Assembly: GCA_943358175.1 (NCBI GenBank)
Contig: CALRGV010000007.1
Span: 1-59,819 of the forward strand
Direction: 5' to 3'
Source: Candidatus Peribacteria bacterium
Lineage (GTDB): Bacteria > Patescibacteriota > Gracilibacteria > UBA1369 > LOWO2-01-FULL-3
Length of the DNA: 59,819 nt
Positions 47,555 to 54,747 of the stretch are shown here, one piece after another; the first letter of the stretch is position 1, and each line of letters begins with the position of its first letter. The translations under genes and the position numbers were made by a program. The notes beneath the pieces are model-generated. The model did no database searches, was not told the DNA's origin, and saw only the letters and a program-made list of their open reading frames with translations.

Positions 47555-47794
47555 TTAAGCAATCACGGAGAAACCATCTAACGCAAAAGAAGGACGGCGT
47601 GGTTCATGCCCGAGCACAGCGAACTCAGCCGCATCTATATTTTTGCGTAGTTTATCAGCTGCTTTGAATAGCTGCTTCTCGAAGCCTTCAGTAGGTTTAT
47701 TAGAGGTCATTACATTTTTAGCATTACCACTTTCTTCACCGCTGATCGTACACCAATGATCATTGGTTCTCAATAGAAGGTGTACAGTAGACAA
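47555..47794 (-). pseudogene. Remnant of a type I restriction methyltransferase (hsdM N-terminus)
   Basis: 79 codons. Residues ~37-57, GFEKQLFKAADKLRKNIDAA, closely match the conserved HsdM N-terminus ([29 protein letters not shown]-type), after which similarity stops and the frame ends. The rest of hsdM, and hsdR/hsdS, are absent. It lies immediately upstream of mod and suggests a replaced restriction locus. Confidence 0.6.
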
Positions 47795-48020
47795 TCTGGT
47801 CGTGAAAGAACTATTGAATTATCAACTAGGCAAACGTGTACGAGCTCTTCGTGCTGAATATAAATTGACTCAAGAGGCTTTGGCTGGAAAGGCTCATATT
47901 AGTCTTAAGTATATCCAGAGGATTGAAGGTAAAAATCCTCAAGATATTGGCCTGGAATACCTAGAGAAATTGGCTAACGGATTTGACATGCCTGTGTGGA
48001 AGCTGCTTAAATTTGAGTGA
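47763..48020 (+). CDS. XRE-family HTH regulator
   Basis: 85 aa. A single Cro/C1-type helix-turn-helix: LGKRVRALRAEYKLTQEALAGKAHISLKYIQRIE, here in part, followed by LEYLEKLANGFDMPVWKLL. A GTG at 47802 is also a possible start and would avoid overlap with the hsdM remnant. It is divergent from the restriction operon, typical of a controller-type regulator of restriction genes or an element repressor. Confidence 0.85.
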   Translation: MVLNRRCTVDNLVVKELLNYQLGKRVRALRAEYKLTQEALAGKAHISLKYIQRIEGKNPQDIGLEYLEKLANGFDMPVWKLLKFE

Positions 48021-48049
48021 ACACTTTGGTTTAAAAAACGTAATGAAAT

Positions 48050-49258
48050 ATGGCCATACTTAAACTATACGAACTCGCCACTAGGAAAGTAGAGGATCCT
48101 ATTCAGGAGCAATTAGATATTATTAACTCTACGGACGTAAGTTTGTTGATAACATTAATTTTGTTCCAACTTATCAAAGAAAATAGATCCACGGTTTACT
48201 TCGATACATTTTGCCAATATCCATTCGAGAAAATAGAAATCGATGATTATCACGATTACCATAATCTATCTGTATATATCTACGAAAGATGCATCAGTGA
48301 TTTTTTGCCAACTTCATTGAGTGAAAGTCCAATTACTTTTTTGGATAACACTAAGTTCACTGTCGATACCGAGTTCATCGTAAGCAAAATAATAGAAAAA
48401 GCCCATAAAACTCTTCTTGAGGAGCGAATGTTCACAGAAAATATATCAAGTCATTATGCAGATATGATTGAAAAATACTTTGAATTGCAAAAGGAGTGCA
48501 ACTTCAAGAGAGCTAGTGAAATAATAAACCATAGATTTAACTACAAATTTGAGGTTGGAAATGAGCATTATCGAAGCTACATAGTTGATCTGCTAGATGT
48601 TGTGCCCGAGTGTATAGAAATAAATTTTATTTTTAAGAAGGACCTGGCTTTAGATGCTGAAAGTAAGGTTAATAATTACCTAATTGCCAACCCTCCAAGT
48701 GAAGACTTAATCGAATTTCAGGATTATATTTTGAATCTAAAATTTGCGAATGGCAGAATCAAGATACCCTTTGAATCCATGGGAAATGATAGGTTTAGAG
48801 TGGTTGAAATGCTAAGATACTTAGAACTTACACATCAAATAGAAATTCAAGACTGGATCGGGAAGAATAGTCATTGGGAAATTCGCCTTCTTTCCAACGA
48901 AATGCTGAGTTTATTCATACCAAACATTGATCTGTTAATTCAAAAAAAAGAGAGTACTCCAAAGACTTCTATGGTTTGTTTTACTGAAGATGGAAATCTG
49001 GAATATGAAATGAAAGAACCCATATTTGACTTAACTCCACTTCAAAAGGTTTTGTGTAAGAAACTTTATTCAGAAAAAGAGAATTACAATTTTGAAACTA
49101 TAGATATTGAACTGGCTGTTTATGGCGGCGATAACACTAAACAAAGCCAAGAAAAGCTCAAGAAATTGATTGAAAGGCTGAATGGAAAAGTTAGGGACGC
49201 ATTCGGGATTAAGGAATGGATACATTATGGAGCAAATAACTTAAGAAGGTTAGTTTAA
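48050..49258 (+). CDS. Unknown protein with possible C-terminal winged HTH
   Basis: 402 aa. The N-terminal two thirds are helical with no known motif. The last ~65 residues (DIELAVYGGDNTKQSQEKLKKLIERLNGKVRDAFGI, in part) resemble the effector HTH of response-regulator-like proteins. No signal peptide. It follows the XRE gene by 29 nt. It may be a regulatory or accessory protein of the element. Confidence 0.6.
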   Translation: MAILKLYELATRKVEDPIQEQLDIINSTDVSLLITLILFQLIKENRSTVYFDTFCQYPFEKIEIDDYHDYHNLSVYIYERCISDFLPTSLSESPITFLDNTKFTVDTEFIVSKIIEKAHKTLLEERMFTENISSHYADMIEKYFELQKECNFKRASEIINHRFNYKFEVGNEHYRSYIVDLLDVVPECIEINFIFKKDLALDAESKVNNYLIANPPSEDLIEFQDYILNLKFANGRIKIPFESMGNDRFRVVEMLRYLELTHQIEIQDWIGKNSHWEIRLLSNEMLSLFIPNIDLLIQKKESTPKTSMVCFTEDGNLEYEMKEPIFDLTPLQKVLCKKLYSEKENYNFETIDIELAVYGGDNTKQSQEKLKKLIERLNGKVRDAFGIKEWIHYGANNLRRLV

Positions 49259-49329
49259 GGGCAGTTATTGGTCTAGAGGGTCCCTAAAAAGTCCCGATTA
49301 TTTCGTTGTGGTTGTTTTATCGTGTCAGC

Positions 49330-49503
49330 ATGGATGCAGACGATAAAGTAAAAAAGGCCTACGAAGAAATGCTCAATAGAGAGCTAAGTAATGAAGAGTT
49401 TCAGGAAGCTCGGCTTAACCTTGTCGGCTTTTTTGAAACGTTAATTCAAATAAATCGAAACCTAAAACTTAACCAAAAAACTAATGAAACACCAGATAAC
49501 TGA
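49330..49503 (+). CDS. Small helical protein of mobile-element type
   Basis: 57 aa from the ATG at 49330; an earlier in-frame ATG at 49306 would add 8 residues. Pattern VKKAYEEMLNRELSNEEFQEARLNLVGFFETLIQI, similar in layout to the 54-aa protein at 39216. Its 3' end overlaps the spoVG-like gene by 20 nt. Part of the replication cluster. Confidence 0.65.
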   Translation: MDADDKVKKAYEEMLNRELSNEEFQEARLNLVGFFETLIQINRNLKLNQKTNETPDN

Positions 49504-49756
49504 AGTTCAAATCATTCCCATAAAACCAAACAATGGACTTGTAGCCTTTGCAAGTTGCGTTTTAGACGAAGCCCTTTATATAGGTTCAATTGCCATCCAT
49601 CAAAAATTAGACTTGTTAGGCTGCAGACTCACTTATCCAACAAAAAAGGTTTTGGACAGAGATCTTCATATCTTTCACCCAATCAACAAGGAACTTTCAA
49701 AGCAGATAGAGATTGAGATCCTCAATAAATATAGCGAACTGCAAGCTAGAAAATAA
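49484..49756 (+). CDS. spoVG: SpoVG-family nucleic-acid-binding protein
   Basis: 90 aa. Matches the SpoVG pattern: ITEVQIIPIKPNNGLVAFASCVLDEALYI (in part; compare VTDVRxRxV...RAIASITLD), YPTKK in the position of MPSKR, and HPINKELSKQIEIEILNKY, corresponding to HPINxxxRxxIxxxVLxxY. SpoVG proteins bind DNA or RNA and regulate gene expression. In this position, between a small helical protein and Rep, it probably serves the element. It overlaps the upstream gene by 20 nt and is 30 nt from rep. Confidence 0.85.
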   Translation: MKHQITEVQIIPIKPNNGLVAFASCVLDEALYIGSIAIHQKLDLLGCRLTYPTKKVLDRDLHIFHPINKELSKQIEIEILNKYSELQARK

Positions 49757-49786
49757 GCTTCACTCTAAAGACGTAATGCAAAAATA

Positions 49787-50950
49787 ATGATAGATACCAT
49801 TGTTCTAATAATGCCAATCAGCCAATCAAATCTCACCATAGCATCTAAATTTGACCCAGACGCCAAGGGACTTTTCCAACCACCCTACATTCCATTTGCT
49901 GGCCAACATTATGTCCAATGCATTCAAAACCCTAGCCCCGAGGACAAAGGAAATCACGTATACATGCCACGACTAGCTCTTACCAAGAGAAAAAGCCGAG
50001 ATGGATCCAGCTATATTATTACATTGAAAATTGAGTTCTCAGTGCCAAAGCTTTTATATTCCAATAATTTTGACGAAGTTCAGGATTCAGATTTTGAAAA
50101 AGTAGTAACCACATTGAAGCATAAGTTATTCAGAATGGGCGTTACAATTCCACTGGATGATCTTAAGAATGCAGATGTGCAATCTATACATTACGGCAAA
50201 AACATTGCTTTTATTGATTACACTACTGCTACTAGTATTATGGATGTTTTGAGAAAGATCAAAGTCACGCGAAGGCTAGATGTTAACCATACCGATTATA
50301 TTAACGATGGAGAAGCTGTACGCTATCATAGCAAGTCATTCCAGGTTGTTTTTTACGATAAAATAGAGGATCTCAAAAAGGCAGCGGCTCGTGCTGAAGA
50401 AAAGGAAGACAGGGGATTCAACTACCAAACCGATCTATTTACAGCCATTCAAAAGAAGAAACATCCTCTTGAAGTTTTACGCATGGAAGTTCGGTACATT
50501 GGTAAAAAAAGTATCAAAGCCCACTTTAAGAAACTTAGAATCGTAAATGAATTCACCTTTAAATCACTTTTCCAGATGTCCATTGCAAGGAAAGTCCTTT
50601 GCGACTATTGGGATACTATCTACATTGAATTAAAACCTGTATTACTGCAGAACCTAAGCATTTCTGAGCAGTTTGTGCTTATTGCAAAGCAAAAGAGGCA
50701 ATCTAAACCTCAAAGCATTTTAAGCATGATCGCAATTACTTCAATGATCAAGGAGGTTGGATATAGGAAGACCAAGCAGCACTTTGATAAATACTTTTCA
50801 GGTCGCACCATGGAGCGCATTTTTAAAGAAATCAAAGAGTTGAATTTTACTATCGCCAATAAACTTTCTCCAATCATTAAGGTTACCAACGACTTAAAAG
50901 AATTTAAGGCTTTGAAAATGAAGGACTACGATATAGAATCACTTATGTAA
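49787..50950 (+). CDS. Phage/plasmid replication initiation protein, gene II/X-like
   Basis: 387 aa. The opening MIDTIVLIMP is typical for replication proteins of the filamentous phage gene II/X family, and the basic middle with YHSKSFQVVFYDKIEDLKK and LEVLRMEVRYIGKKSIK fits those nickases. I cannot pin down the catalytic tyrosine with certainty. It would nick an origin for rolling-circle replication of the excised element. It lies between spoVG and an excisionase-like gene, all in one direction. Confidence 0.7.
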   Translation: MIDTIVLIMPISQSNLTIASKFDPDAKGLFQPPYIPFAGQHYVQCIQNPSPEDKGNHVYMPRLALTKRKSRDGSSYIITLKIEFSVPKLLYSNNFDEVQDSDFEKVVTTLKHKLFRMGVTIPLDDLKNADVQSIHYGKNIAFIDYTTATSIMDVLRKIKVTRRLDVNHTDYINDGEAVRYHSKSFQVVFYDKIEDLKKAAARAEEKEDRGFNYQTDLFTAIQKKKHPLEVLRMEVRYIGKKSIKAHFKKLRIVNEFTFKSLFQMSIARKVLCDYWDTIYIELKPVLLQNLSISEQFVLIAKQKRQSKPQSILSMIAITSMIKEVGYRKTKQHFDKYFSGRTMERIFKEIKELNFTIANKLSPIIKVTNDLKEFKALKMKDYDIESLM

Positions 50951-50974
50951 AGAATTGTTAACAACTGTCATTTA

Positions 50975-51145
50975 ATGGAACAATACTATCTCTTGGAAGA
51001 AGTAGCACAAAAACTTCGTGTCAGTAATATGACTATTTACAGATACATCAAAGCTAAAAAACTGAAGGCAATTAAGCTCGAAAAAGAGTGGCGTATCGCA
51101 TCGGTAGATCTAGAAGAATTTCTGAAAAATAGAAGCAGCATTTAA
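50975..51145 (+). CDS. Excisionase/MerR-like small HTH protein
   Basis: 56 aa: MEQYYLLEEVAQKLRVSNMT (start), then IYRYIKAKKLKAIKLEKEWRI, the classic helix-turn-helix plus wing of HTH_17/excisionase proteins. The stop lies 10 nt before the recombinase start. It is probably the directionality factor of the recombinase. Confidence 0.82.
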   Translation: MEQYYLLEEVAQKLRVSNMTIYRYIKAKKLKAIKLEKEWRIASVDLEEFLKNRSSI

Positions 51146-51155
51146 CCAATGACAC

Positions 51156-52673
51156 ATGAAGGCAATCATACTGGCCAGAGTTTCTACTAAGAAACAGGAA
51201 GACGAAGGTCTTTCCCTGGATTACCAATTAGAAACGCTGAGAAATTATGCCAAAGAAAACAATTTTCAAGTGGCTAAGGAGTTTGTCTTCCACGAAAGTG
51301 CTGGCCACAAGATACGTCGAAACTTTGACGAAATGATGGATTACTTCAAGGACAATACAGATGTTCAATGTATTTTAGCTTTCAGAGTTGATCGTATGAC
51401 TCGTAACTTCCGCGACGCTGTAGCCTTGGACACCTTACGGACAGAATACAATAAAGAAATTCATTTTGTTCATGACCGCCTTGTTCTGAATGCGGAATCG
51501 GTAGGACGTGATATACAAGACTGGGACCTGAAAGTCTTTTTAGCGAAGCAGTTTCTAAATCGTTTAAAGGAAGATGGAGTTAACACATGGCGTCACAAGT
51601 TAAGAAACGGAGAATGGCCAGGCAAGGCTACCTGTGGCTATAAAAACGTAGAAATTGAAGGAAAGAAAAAGTGGATAGTAGTTGATGAAGAAAGGAAGGA
51701 ATTAACGATCAAAGCATTTGAGCTATATTCTACAGGTGGCTACTCATATGAAACATTAGCTAAAGAGTTGGCTAATTTAGGACTTACGACGAATACCGAA
51801 AATCCAAAACCAATATATAAGAACTGCATAGACAAGCAGATATTAAATAATCCATTTTACTACGGAGAAATGGCTTTTAAGGGAAAGCTTTACCAGCACC
51901 ACTATGAACCACTGATTCCTAAGTGGCTTTATGACAAGTGTCAGCAAGTTAGAATGTCTTGGCATAAGAAGCAGTATAAGTACGGAGCCAAGGAATTTGC
52001 CTTTAAGAGTTTACTTGAATGTTCGGAATGCAATAAAGTTTTATCTACATACACAAAGAAGGGACATAATTATCTACGTTGCCATACTTGCAAAAAAGTT
52101 CATGTAAATGAGGATGTGCTTTTGGCGCAGATAGCGCCTTTATTCAAGAAACTTGAAATGCCTCAAATAGTGCTAGACGATCTCAAGGTGCAGCTTCAAA
52201 AGAATCATGAGAATGAAAATGCTTTTTATGATAACAATGTTAAACATATCAATTCAGAGATCGAAAAGAACAAGACGCGCATGAAGGTAATGTATCAAGA
52301 CAGACTCGACGGACGTATTACCTACGCTGAGTACGACAGTATGATTGTTGAATTTAAGAATAAAGAGCAGGACCAAATAGAGCAGCTAAGCAAGTATTCA
52401 ATGGCTGATCAAGCGTTCTTAGTCACCAGTTCCAATCTATTAGAGCTAGCAAGTAGAGCTCACGACCTTTTTATAAGTTCGCAGGCAGGTGAAAAGAACA
52501 AACTTCTCAAGTTCATACTTGCGAACTTACAAGTAAAAGACGAAAAGCTAGTCTGGAAGCTGAAAAATCTATTTGATGGTGTAATGAAGTGTAACGAGCG
52601 ACACTTCTGGGGTGAGCTATGGGATTCGAACCCACGACCCTCTGGACCACAACCAGATGCTCTAACCAACTGA
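51156..52673 (+). CDS. Large serine recombinase
   Basis: 505 aa. N-terminal resolvase domain with catalytic Ser10 in ILARVSTKKQ and Arg residues in FRVDRMTRNFRD. The recombinase domain (~160-270: GKATCGYKNV..., NNPFYYGEM) follows, then a Zn-ribbon (CSECNKVLSTY...LRCHTCKKV) and a coiled coil. The last ~21 residues (WGELWDSNPRPSGPQPDALT) are the antisense translation of tRNA-His, which also supplies the stop codon. So the gene's 3' end is formed by the chromosomal attachment site, and its true C-terminus in the circular form may differ. It is the likely integrase of the element. Confidence 0.9.
   Translation: MKAIILARVSTKKQEDEGLSLDYQLETLRNYAKENNFQVAKEFVFHESAGHKIRRNFDEMMDYFKDNTDVQCILAFRVDRMTRNFRDAVALDTLRTEYNKEIHFVHDRLVLNAESVGRDIQDWDLKVFLAKQFLNRLKEDGVNTWRHKLRNGEWPGKATCGYKNVEIEGKKKWIVVDEERKELTIKAFELYSTGGYSYETLAKELANLGLTTNTENPKPIYKNCIDKQILNNPFYYGEMAFKGKLYQHHYEPLIPKWLYDKCQQVRMSWHKKQYKYGAKEFAFKSLLECSECNKVLSTYTKKGHNYLRCHTCKKVHVNEDVLLAQIAPLFKKLEMPQIVLDDLKVQLQKNHENENAFYDNNVKHINSEIEKNKTRMKVMYQDRLDGRITYAEYDSMIVEFKNKEQDQIEQLSKYSMADQAFLVTSSNLLELASRAHDLFISSQAGEKNKLLKFILANLQVKDEKLVWKLKNLFDGVMKCNERHFWGELWDSNPRPSGPQPDALTN
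52586..52607. other. Inverted repeat abutting the 3' end of tRNA-His (att-site candidate)
   Basis: GAAGTGT-AACGAGCG-ACACTTC, a perfect 7-bp dyad that touches the tRNA CCA end and lies inside the recombinase 3' end. It could be a recombinase half-site pair or a tRNA trailer hairpin. Confidence 0.45.
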
Positions 52674-52685
52674 GCTAAGCCCACC
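52608..52685 (-). tRNA. tRNA-His (GUG), CCA encoded
   Basis: Minus strand. Acceptor GTGGGCT/AGCTCAC, an extra G-1 opposite C73 as required for tRNA-His, anticodon stem TCTGG/CCAGA with loop TTGTGGT giving GTG, T-arm with GGTTCGAAT, and CCA. It overlaps the end of the recombinase gene by 66 nt in antisense and is the probable integration target. Confidence 0.95.
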
Positions 52686-52784: not shown

Positions 52785-52910
52785 GGAAAGTGTTTGAATT
52801 ACCCCAGATACGAGGCGTCTGGAAAATTTTGACCGCAGTGTACTAGTCGTGTACACGAGGATCAAAATTTTCCAGACAACGAAGTAGATGGGGTAATTCA
52901 AGCACTTTCC
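52785..52910. repeat. 126-nt compound hairpin (nested inverted repeat)
   Basis: Outer arms 52785-52806 and 52889-52910: 22 bp with one G-U. After an internal loop (11/12 nt), inner arms 52818-52832 and 52862-52876: 15 bp, perfect. The terminal part has GTGTAC (52838-52843) / GTACAC (52851-52856). No ORF explains it. It lies between tRNA-His and the terminator of an RNA gene. Confidence 0.9.
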
Positions 52911-52914
52911 AAAT

Positions 52915-52943
52915 AAAAAAGCCCTCCCCACTTGGAGGAGAGC
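52915..52943 (-). terminator. Intrinsic terminator of the unidentified RNA
   Basis: On the minus strand GCTCTCCTC pairs with GGGGAGGGC (with G-U pairs) around a short loop, followed by TTTTTT. Confidence 0.75.
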
Positions 52944-53189
52944 CCTCGTATAGACTTAGGAATACGAACGCCCTAGAAAAGCCTTTGTAACCTAATCCTT
53001 CAAGATTATTCGAAACGGCAGAACCGCTATCGATATGCTCATCGCCCAGTATTGTCAGCCCGTGGCCCGGCTTTTTTGCTCAGCAACGCTTAATATACCT
53101 AATATCGATTATTCGCACAAGTGATTTTGATTAACCACCCCAAATTTCTGTTGCTAAGATTAAGAAAAAGTTACAACAGAAGCTAAGTC
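52915..53189 (-). ncRNA. Unidentified structured RNA gene, about 270 nt
   Basis: Full-consensus promoter on the minus strand (53193-53220) and an intrinsic terminator (52915-52943) enclose ~270 nt without an ORF. The ends pair: GACTTAG (near 53183-53189) with CTAAGTC (near 52960), closing the molecule. Inner helices include TTCTGTTG/CAACAGAA (8 bp), AAAAGCC/GGCTTTT and TAATC/GATTA. Conserved cores of RNase P RNA, tmRNA and SRP RNA are not visible. 6S RNA is possible by architecture (closed long stem), but longer than usual. Confidence 0.65.
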
Positions 53190-53192
53190 TTA

Positions 53193-53220
53193 ATTATAAC
53201 ACGCATCACAACAATGTCAA
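53193..53220 (-). promoter_or_regulatory. Consensus promoter of the unidentified RNA
   Basis: Minus strand TTGACA (53215-53220), 16 nt, TATAAT (53193-53198): both hexamers are perfect, the strongest promoter in the window. Confidence 0.8.
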
Positions 53221-53317: not shown

Positions 53318-54511
53318 ATGAAAAAACGCCTACTGTTCTACAAACTCAAGGAGCACATTCAACACAAAAACGCATTGGTAATTACCGGTATGCGCCAGGT
53401 TGGCAAAACCACATTGTTGAAACAGATTTATGAAGAACTCGGACAAAAACCCAAACTTAGTTTTGATTTTGACAATCCTCTGGATCAAAAAATATTTGAA
53501 GACATCGAGTACAATAATATTTATCAGCGCCTGAGTAATATGGCCGGTACGACTGATAAGTCTGAAAGACTTTATATCTTCATCGATGAGATCCAAAATT
53601 TTCCCGAAATCACAAAAGTGATCAAGTTTATGATTGACCACTATGGGGTAAAATTTTTTGTCACGGGATCATCGGGATTTTATTTAAAAAACCTCTTTCC
53701 TGAATCTTTAAGCGGCCGAAAATTTCTCTATGTTTTACCACCACTTGGCTTTCAGGAACTTTTATATTTCCGTGACAAAATATCTCTTGAACAAGCACTG
53801 AAATCAAGCTCACTCCCGGATATAACTACTCGATCATATACTGATCTTGTCCGCTTTTCGGAAGACTATAGGGAGTATTTGGAATTTGGTGGTCTGCCAG
53901 AGGTCGTAATGACGGCAGACCTGACAACAAAAATAGAAATTTTACGCAACGCGTTTAGCTCATTCTTCGAAAAGGATCTAAAATTATTATCAGATTATAA
54001 GGATATCAGGGAATTGAGAGATTTAATTCTTCTTTTGGTTCCACGGGTTGGATCAATGCTGGATATTTCCAAGCTGGGCATTGAGCTGGGGGTGGAGCGA
54101 AAAAAAATATATTCTTATCTCGAATTTCTTGAAGGAACATTTTTTCTACGCTTAATCCCTAAATTTTCACACAGTGTGGATAGATCCGTAGCCGGAGGAA
54201 AAAAGGTTTATTTTTGTGATACGGGCCTCCTGAAAATGATTGGCAATGTAAACGACGGACAGCTACTGGAAAACGGAGTAGCCAATCAGCTCGCTCCGCT
54301 GGGAGACATCAGTTTTTACAATAAGAGAAACACTATGGAAATTGATTTCATTTACAACAAGGAAATAGCTTTTGAAATAAAAACCAAAGCCTCGGAAAAC
54401 GACATTGAAAAAACTCAAGAAATATCGAAAAAACTGGGTCTCTCAAAGTCTTTTGTAGTTAGTTTGAATTACATTGACCATAAGAACGTCATCTCTCCGT
54501 ATCAACTCTAG
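53318..54511 (+). CDS. AAA ATPase with DUF4143 domain
   Basis: 397 aa from the ATG at 53318; an upstream in-frame ATG at 53264 lies before the promoter. AAA_14 domain: Walker A GMRQVGKTTLL (~25), Walker B RLYIFIDEIQNF, and VTGSSGFYLKN as sensor 1. The DUF4143 part (~180-390) contains FGGLPEVV, the winged helix KKIYSYLEFLEGTFFLRLI, and KVYFCDTGLL. The C-terminal MEIDFIY...IAFEIKTK has the D...ExK layout of a degraded or active PD-(D/E)XK fold. Such ATPases are widespread in CPR and often near toxin-antitoxin or mobile genes; the role is unknown. Confidence 0.85.
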   Translation: MKKRLLFYKLKEHIQHKNALVITGMRQVGKTTLLKQIYEELGQKPKLSFDFDNPLDQKIFEDIEYNNIYQRLSNMAGTTDKSERLYIFIDEIQNFPEITKVIKFMIDHYGVKFFVTGSSGFYLKNLFPESLSGRKFLYVLPPLGFQELLYFRDKISLEQALKSSSLPDITTRSYTDLVRFSEDYREYLEFGGLPEVVMTADLTTKIEILRNAFSSFFEKDLKLLSDYKDIRELRDLILLLVPRVGSMLDISKLGIELGVERKKIYSYLEFLEGTFFLRLIPKFSHSVDRSVAGGKKVYFCDTGLLKMIGNVNDGQLLENGVANQLAPLGDISFYNKRNTMEIDFIYNKEIAFEIKTKASENDIEKTQEISKKLGLSKSFVVSLNYIDHKNVISPYQL

Positions 54512-54747
54512 TGTTTAGACTTGCTCAGCCCCTCAATCATTATCTTGTATTTTAGTTCGACTCGCTTTTTCTTTTCGTTAAGGCTAGCCATTTTTTTGTG
54601 CTCGGTGCTTAAAGTGCCATAAACATCACCCAATTCATCCTCAGTCATGCCAGGCAAAAGAATAACTATCATGCTTTTCTGATGAGCGGATAGGGTAGAG
54701 GATGGTAGAAATTTCAGAATAGCTTCTTGTAATTCCGCCTTGGTCAT
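54508..54747 (-). CDS. Small helical protein of unknown function
   Basis: 79 aa: MTKAELQEAILKFLPSSTLS..., with helices and a Lys-rich end (KKKRVELKYKIMIEGLSKSKH, in part). The stop overlaps the ATPase gene's 3' end by 4 nt (convergent). It lies 14 nt downstream of the 336-aa gene on the same strand and shares its transcript. No family recognised. Confidence 0.5.
   Translation of the reverse strand: MTKAELQEAILKFLPSSTLSAHQKSMIVILLPGMTEDELGDVYGTLSTEHKKMASLNEKKKRVELKYKIMIEGLSKSKH

Follow-up and report, generated by a model that had tools for sequence, protein, structure and literature searches.

The minus strand of the 59,819-nt stretch of Candidatus Peribacteria DNA analyzed here (the window) carries an RNA gene which we read, with a probability of roughly 78%, as a single-copy, trans-acting, Hfq-independent antisense RNA gene of Patescibacteria. 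As judged from the comparison of genomes, its RNA very probably acts by base-pairing with other RNAs. The last 90 nt or so would form a hairpin with a seed of 12-16 nt in its apical loop, followed by a terminator. Two partners would be bound through this seed by about 9-25 base pairs, perfect or nearly so: (A) an RNA of about 400 nt, in a single-stranded region close to its 5' end, and (B) an HTH_17/Zn-ribbon operon, in the 3' UTR just ahead of its terminator.

Anatomy and distribution of the RNA gene

The first-pass annotation had proposed a perfect sigma-70-type promoter, an intrinsic terminator and an ORF-free transcript of about 270 nt at this locus. All three were borne out, the last as a predicted gene on the minus strand. 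The promoter TTGACA-16-TATAAT (53220-53193, minus strand) matches the consensus at 12/12 positions, with its -35 element at 53215-53220 and its -10 element at 53193-53198, directly preceded by the TG of an extended -10. The 12/12 match is unique, and about seven sites of at least 9/12 are expected by chance per 3 kb. Two congeners, G002 and G003, keep the perfect promoter with its 16-nt spacing, which is also found in a more distant member of the family (G025). The start of the RNA is predicted near 53186, and no ORF of at least 40 aa lies wholly inside the interval of about 270 nt. With its own promoter, an intrinsic terminator and no ORF, the locus in the window has the layout of an sRNA gene.

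The 5' domain (53010-53186, minus strand) consists of a local hairpin and a variable middle part, and is alignable within the genus and poorly conserved outside it. The conserved family core follows at 52915-53003 (minus strand; 95 bits with the covariance model R1). It contains a covarying closing stem, with the left arm GGAUUAGG at 52991-52998 and the right arm CCUAAGUCU at 52952-52960, and between these the seed, GGCUUUUCUAGGGCGU, which occupies the apical region of the hairpin (52968-52983), includes a CUAG of the YUNR type and is complementary to sites in the partner RNAs. The 13-pair terminator (52947-52917, minus strand) has a widely kept CCAAG(U/C)GG loop and is followed by TTTTTTATTT. 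The hairpin, whose loop measures 12-16 nt, and the terminator make up the conserved 3' part of about 90 nt. The whole RNA folds moderately better than shuffled sequences (z = -2.2). The pairing of the two ends that had been suggested was not found in the predicted fold, where the 5' end folds back locally into a hairpin and the terminator makes up the 3' end. The seed core has an unpaired probability of 0.72 in the RNA's own fold, compared with 0.28 for the whole RNA; a conserved and accessible seed is a further sRNA feature.

A blastn comparison with 60 relatives confined wide conservation to the 3' part of the RNA. An alignment of 20 copies revealed the closing stem GAUUAGG/CCUAAGUC, the almost invariant apical stretch AAGGCUUUUCUAGGGCGUU and the recurrent CCAAGYGG terminator loop. 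The stem and terminator together contain 47 doubly changed cells, as against 15.3 +/- 3.3 in shuffles (0/500) and at most 22 in slid controls. The model R1, built from this alignment of closing stem and terminator, detected exactly one copy in each of 50 of the 89 genomes of the order (one within Candidatus Peregrinibacteria). In a sample of 380 genomes of the phylum, the RNA occurred in 11 of the 16 genomes that belong to the order and in 0/364 outside it. CUAG is present in the seed of nearly all copies; the weak model matches in G034 and G039 are hairpins without the seed. In G080 a site is present and the RNA was not detected, possibly because of an assembly gap. Neither the gathering score nor a permissive scan of Rfam 15 gave a match, and a search of the literature found no description of this RNA. 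The covariation among homologous loci without an Rfam match supports a new conserved family, known only from one order of Peregrinibacteria; it is in this sense that the earlier suggestion of a new class stands.

The strength of the promoter had also been taken to suggest an abundant housekeeping RNA, perhaps a divergent 6S RNA. Most copies of the RNA in family f1 have a promoter of their own. Those in f2, f5, f8 and f14 instead follow a zinc metallopeptidase-like gene, with 12-78 nt between its stop codon and the RNA core, and promoter strength is therefore not a defining property of the RNA. The strong promoter is a lineage-specific trait, and what the evidence favors is a regulator that acts by base-pairing. 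It is very improbable that the RNA is a divergent 6S, RNase P, tmRNA or SRP RNA: a strong promoter, a terminator and the lack of an ORF would suit such an RNA, but the conserved core measures only about 90 nt, the RNA was undetected in 39 of the 89 genomes of the order and in the 364 outside it, unlike a universal RNA, and Rfam gave no match even permissively. As had been anticipated, covariance models (and ARAGORN for tmRNA) gave no match to RNase P, tmRNA or SRP RNA. The 6S RNA model (RF00013) likewise did not match the window RNA, whose fold lacks the long rod with paired ends and a central bulge. Because this rod is absent and the window's genome (G000) has a separate, better 6S candidate (G000:C3:60880-61038; 41.8 bits, Rfam cut-off 46.4 bits), the window RNA is not regarded as 6S RNA.

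A tRNA-His gene (52608-52684, minus strand; ARAGORN) lies downstream of the RNA gene, and a pattern search found a tRNA-His-like sequence 49-270 nt downstream of the RNA in most homologous loci. A phage- or plasmid-like gene cluster (47763-52673) ends in a large serine recombinase gene, the 3' end of which overlaps the tRNA-His gene on the opposite strand; the cluster is probably an element integrated at tRNA-His. A comparable recombinase-like frame has its end near tRNA-His at one homologous locus as well (L007, G019). Beside the RNA terminator is a long palindromic element (52786-52910) with the fixed centre GATCCTCRTGTAC..GTACACTGCGGTC and arms that differ in sequence. Similar elements occur beside the RNA in L005, L010 and L011, and beside or inside class A loci in L104 and L120. 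On the other side, an AAA_14/DUF4143 ATPase gene (53318-54511) separates the RNA from a small gene (54508-54747, minus strand) that directly precedes the RNA in relatives such as G002; the ATPase gene is probably an insertion. The window also contains a DUF3800-V RNA motif at 2793-2888 (RF02964, 44.6 bits).

Partner loci and changes shared by seed and site

The reverse complement of the loop, ACGCCCUAGAAAAGC, occurs with at most one mismatch at 59 sites in 30 genomes. The RNA gene itself accounts for 26 of the 59, and a reversed-pattern control gives 3. The non-self sites fall mainly into two classes, A and B, which are conserved in position (many, not all, of the class A and B loci were found via the site itself). 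As is typical of an sRNA, conserved complementary sites occur at unlinked loci above chance. Their accessibility is only slightly above average.

A second non-coding transcript carries the class A site close to its 5' end, in most cases immediately behind a short 5' hairpin. The gene for this transcript is divergent from a DnaQ-type exonuclease gene and adjoins carA. It is predicted to specify a structured RNA, about 400 nt long and with A-rich linkers, from a TTGACA-type promoter of its own and with a terminator, and it has no significant Rfam match. A conserved element, GGCGGCCGGUGGUGCGGCUGAAAACAACACC, shows covarying stem bases in G033 and G023 and is likely an H-type pseudoknot. The genus has two copies of the class A RNA, in the window's genome at G000:C12:1-281 (minus strand; site at G000:C12:245) and G000:C25:5-268 (plus strand). 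Other loci with this RNA are L081:1905-2340, L080, L090 and L143, among others. G014 has a degenerate class A site, and G006, G008, G016 and G033 have none; in G022 the seed is changed and no clear site was found.

The class B site follows the stop codon of the gene for a small Zn-ribbon protein (MIIHCLSCGKSISS...) and precedes the terminator of its operon, which encodes an HTH_17 protein and the Zn-ribbon protein and often lies downstream of uvrA. The window's genome has two such sites (G000:C4:22784 and 22549). The pairing site in the Zn-ribbon 3' UTRs of f1 (L248-L257) comes after a hairpin that recurs there, AGUUCGU-UGCCC-ACGAACU, which suggests that the 3' UTR may itself be a functional RNA. 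An exact complement of 15 nt of the seed is also present within the recX reading frame (G000:C18:8119-8133) and is exact in three congeners (G000 and the orthologues in G002 and G003); it is possibly a further target or a chance match. Several other readings of the matches were considered. That the recurring 16-nt matches are 23S rRNA was rejected once the loci had been read, matches in the RNA-less G040, G050 and G054 look like chance, being in or near reading frames, and a phage origin was dismissed as no exact-pattern match occurred in viral contigs.

Site and RNA occur together. Since a choice of loci based on the site was to be avoided, class B operons were fetched by homology to the HTH protein, and at least 9 contiguous pairs with the genome's own seed were counted as a site. 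A 3' UTR site pairing with the genome's own loop was present in 12 of 13 RNA-bearing genomes and 0/16 RNA-less genomes (p = 2.5e-7), a comparison free of site bias for 11 of the 13, as G045 and G013 were also found by the site. The 16 RNA-less genomes have the operon and lack the site even when five different loops are allowed, and reversed controls gave a site in 0/13.

Seed and site also change together. In G010 the seed has an extra C (loop UUUUCCUAGG) and the sites an extra G (class A CCUAGGAAAA, class B CCUAGGAAA). An A-to-G change in the seed of G013 (loop UCUGGGG) is matched by UCCCAGA in class A, and the class B site is retained via a G-U pair. Genomes of f2 with the seed GGCUAUUC (loop GGCUAUUCUAGGGCG) have the sites CCCUAGAAUA (CGCCCUAGAAUA), and their sister genomes with the seed GGCUUUUC have CCCUAGAAAA (CCCUAGAAAAGC). 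The loops of f14 are longer, and the sites are lengthened to match, species by species: the loop CUUUGUUGCUUUUCUAGGG of G042 is accompanied by the site CCCUAGAAAAGCAACAAAG, the sites GCCCUAGAAAAGCUACAAAGC in G070 and CUUUAGCCCUAGAAAAGCUAUAAA in G071 match their own loops, and extensions of 20-25 nt are matched in the sites.

By duplex energy and helix length, the true assignment of seeds to sites was the single best of 40,320 permutations, which involve only 8 seed groups, related by descent, and which by their design favor longer loops in duplex energy. With f14 or the short loops taken alone, it again ranked first (1/24 in each case). A few seed groups paired slightly better with the sites of another group (G013 B, G068 B and one f2A site). 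Seed and target covary between species, as would be expected of an sRNA system, and at the level of sequence comparison the pairing is well supported by this covariation.

An unlikely explanation is that a protein-binding motif, either a DNA operator or an RNA-binding site, occurs at several loci and tracks the specificity of its protein, with no RNA-RNA pairing. Sites within one genome would likewise change together in that case, and the fixed relative orientation, across only three locus classes, could be chance. However, the motif appears to lie within transcribed regions throughout (the loop of a covarying hairpin, the gap between stop codon and terminator, and an RNA 5' end). If an RNA-binding protein were involved, every one of the RNAs should share the identical sequence, whereas here one RNA carries the complement. 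RNA pairing is favored because the motif grows in step with the loop, from 12 to 25 nt in f14, and because G-U pairs, which are relevant to RNA only, are tolerated (class B of G013 and G071). It is scarcely credible that the sites are a chance or repeat artefact, that is, small inverted repeats spread by mobile elements. A long palindromic repeat and an apparently integrated recombinase element do adjoin the RNA in the window, but the reversed-pattern control is near zero, the positions of the sites are orthologous from one family to another, genomes that lack the RNA lack the sites too, and seeds covary with sites.

Proposed mode of action

Under the antisense reading, the window RNA and its partners would be transcribed together and pair in the cell, with pairing starting at the exposed loop of the window RNA. 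No Hfq was found in any of 41 genomes (control genomes were positive), so the host does not offer what an Hfq-dependent sRNA would require. This lack fits long, perfect pairing without a chaperone, and the partners would be regulated independently of Hfq. The partners would most likely undergo RNase III-type processing and decay, or a change in stability. Such effects are likelier than a block of translation, because it is the ends of transcripts, rather than ribosome-binding sites, that hold the sites.

Control may tentatively be placed the other way round, with the window RNA as the controlled molecule and the operon 3' UTR (perhaps released) or the 400-nt RNA as a sponge or decoy, or with mutual titration of all three. 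The f1 class B sites lie directly before the terminator beside the AGUUCGU-UGCCC-ACGAACU hairpin, at positions where 3'UTR-derived sponge RNAs arise, and the class A gene, of which the genus has two copies, is preceded by a TTGACA-type promoter of its own. On the other hand, the window RNA is the only single-copy hub common to both partners and is more widespread than class A, and nothing in the sequence fixes the direction of control. A more doubtful proposal is that the window RNA and the class A RNA each form an obligate half of a Peregrinibacteria-specific RNA machine or regulatory complex and are joined by loop-to-tail pairing. The HTH/Zn-ribbon 3' UTR would then be a mimic competing for the loop, and the whole a multi-RNA system without a known counterpart.

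Hardly any work has been done on regulation by non-coding RNA in the Candidate Phyla Radiation, and a literature search for small RNAs or riboswitches in Peregrinibacteria found no papers. Genome comparison alone yielded a conserved RNA, named partners and covarying bases in seed and site, so that the pairing is directly testable in a heterologous host without culturing. It also brought to light a second structured RNA, class A, that had not been described. In lineages that have not been cultured, sRNA networks can be revealed through seed-target covariation between unlinked loci.

Relation to known RNA regulators

The window RNA resembles trans-encoded sRNAs, such as the Hfq-independent ones of Gram-positive bacteria, in the stand-alone promoter and intrinsic terminator seen in f1 and in a conserved exposed seed with complementary sites in RNAs encoded elsewhere. 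It differs from them in that its partners are an mRNA 3' UTR by the terminator and the 5' end of a structured non-coding RNA, rather than ribosome-binding sites. In addition, the pairing is longer and more perfect, the host is a Patescibacterium in which no Hfq was found, and there is no sequence or Rfam relation. Like 6S RNA (RF00013), it is an unlinked non-coding gene with a strong promoter, but it carries a base-pairing seed and has neither a match to that family nor a long rod.

SroC and the ChiX decoys are examples of 3'UTR-derived or sponge RNAs. The complementary site in an mRNA 3' UTR directly before the terminator is similar, whereas release of the class B 3' UTR, or titration by it, is putative here. 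CopA, RNAI and Sok are plasmid-type antisense RNAs with loop seeds and YUNR U-turn loops, and the YUNR-type motif is known from the loops of antisense RNAs. The window RNA shares with this type an apical-loop seed with CUAG (YUNR) and long complementarity, the U-turn itself being only putative here. The YUNR motif is mentioned in passages of PMC4485353 and PMC8464778. In contrast to CopA, RNAI and Sok, the window RNA would act in trans on several separate partners, with complementarity limited to the loop region.
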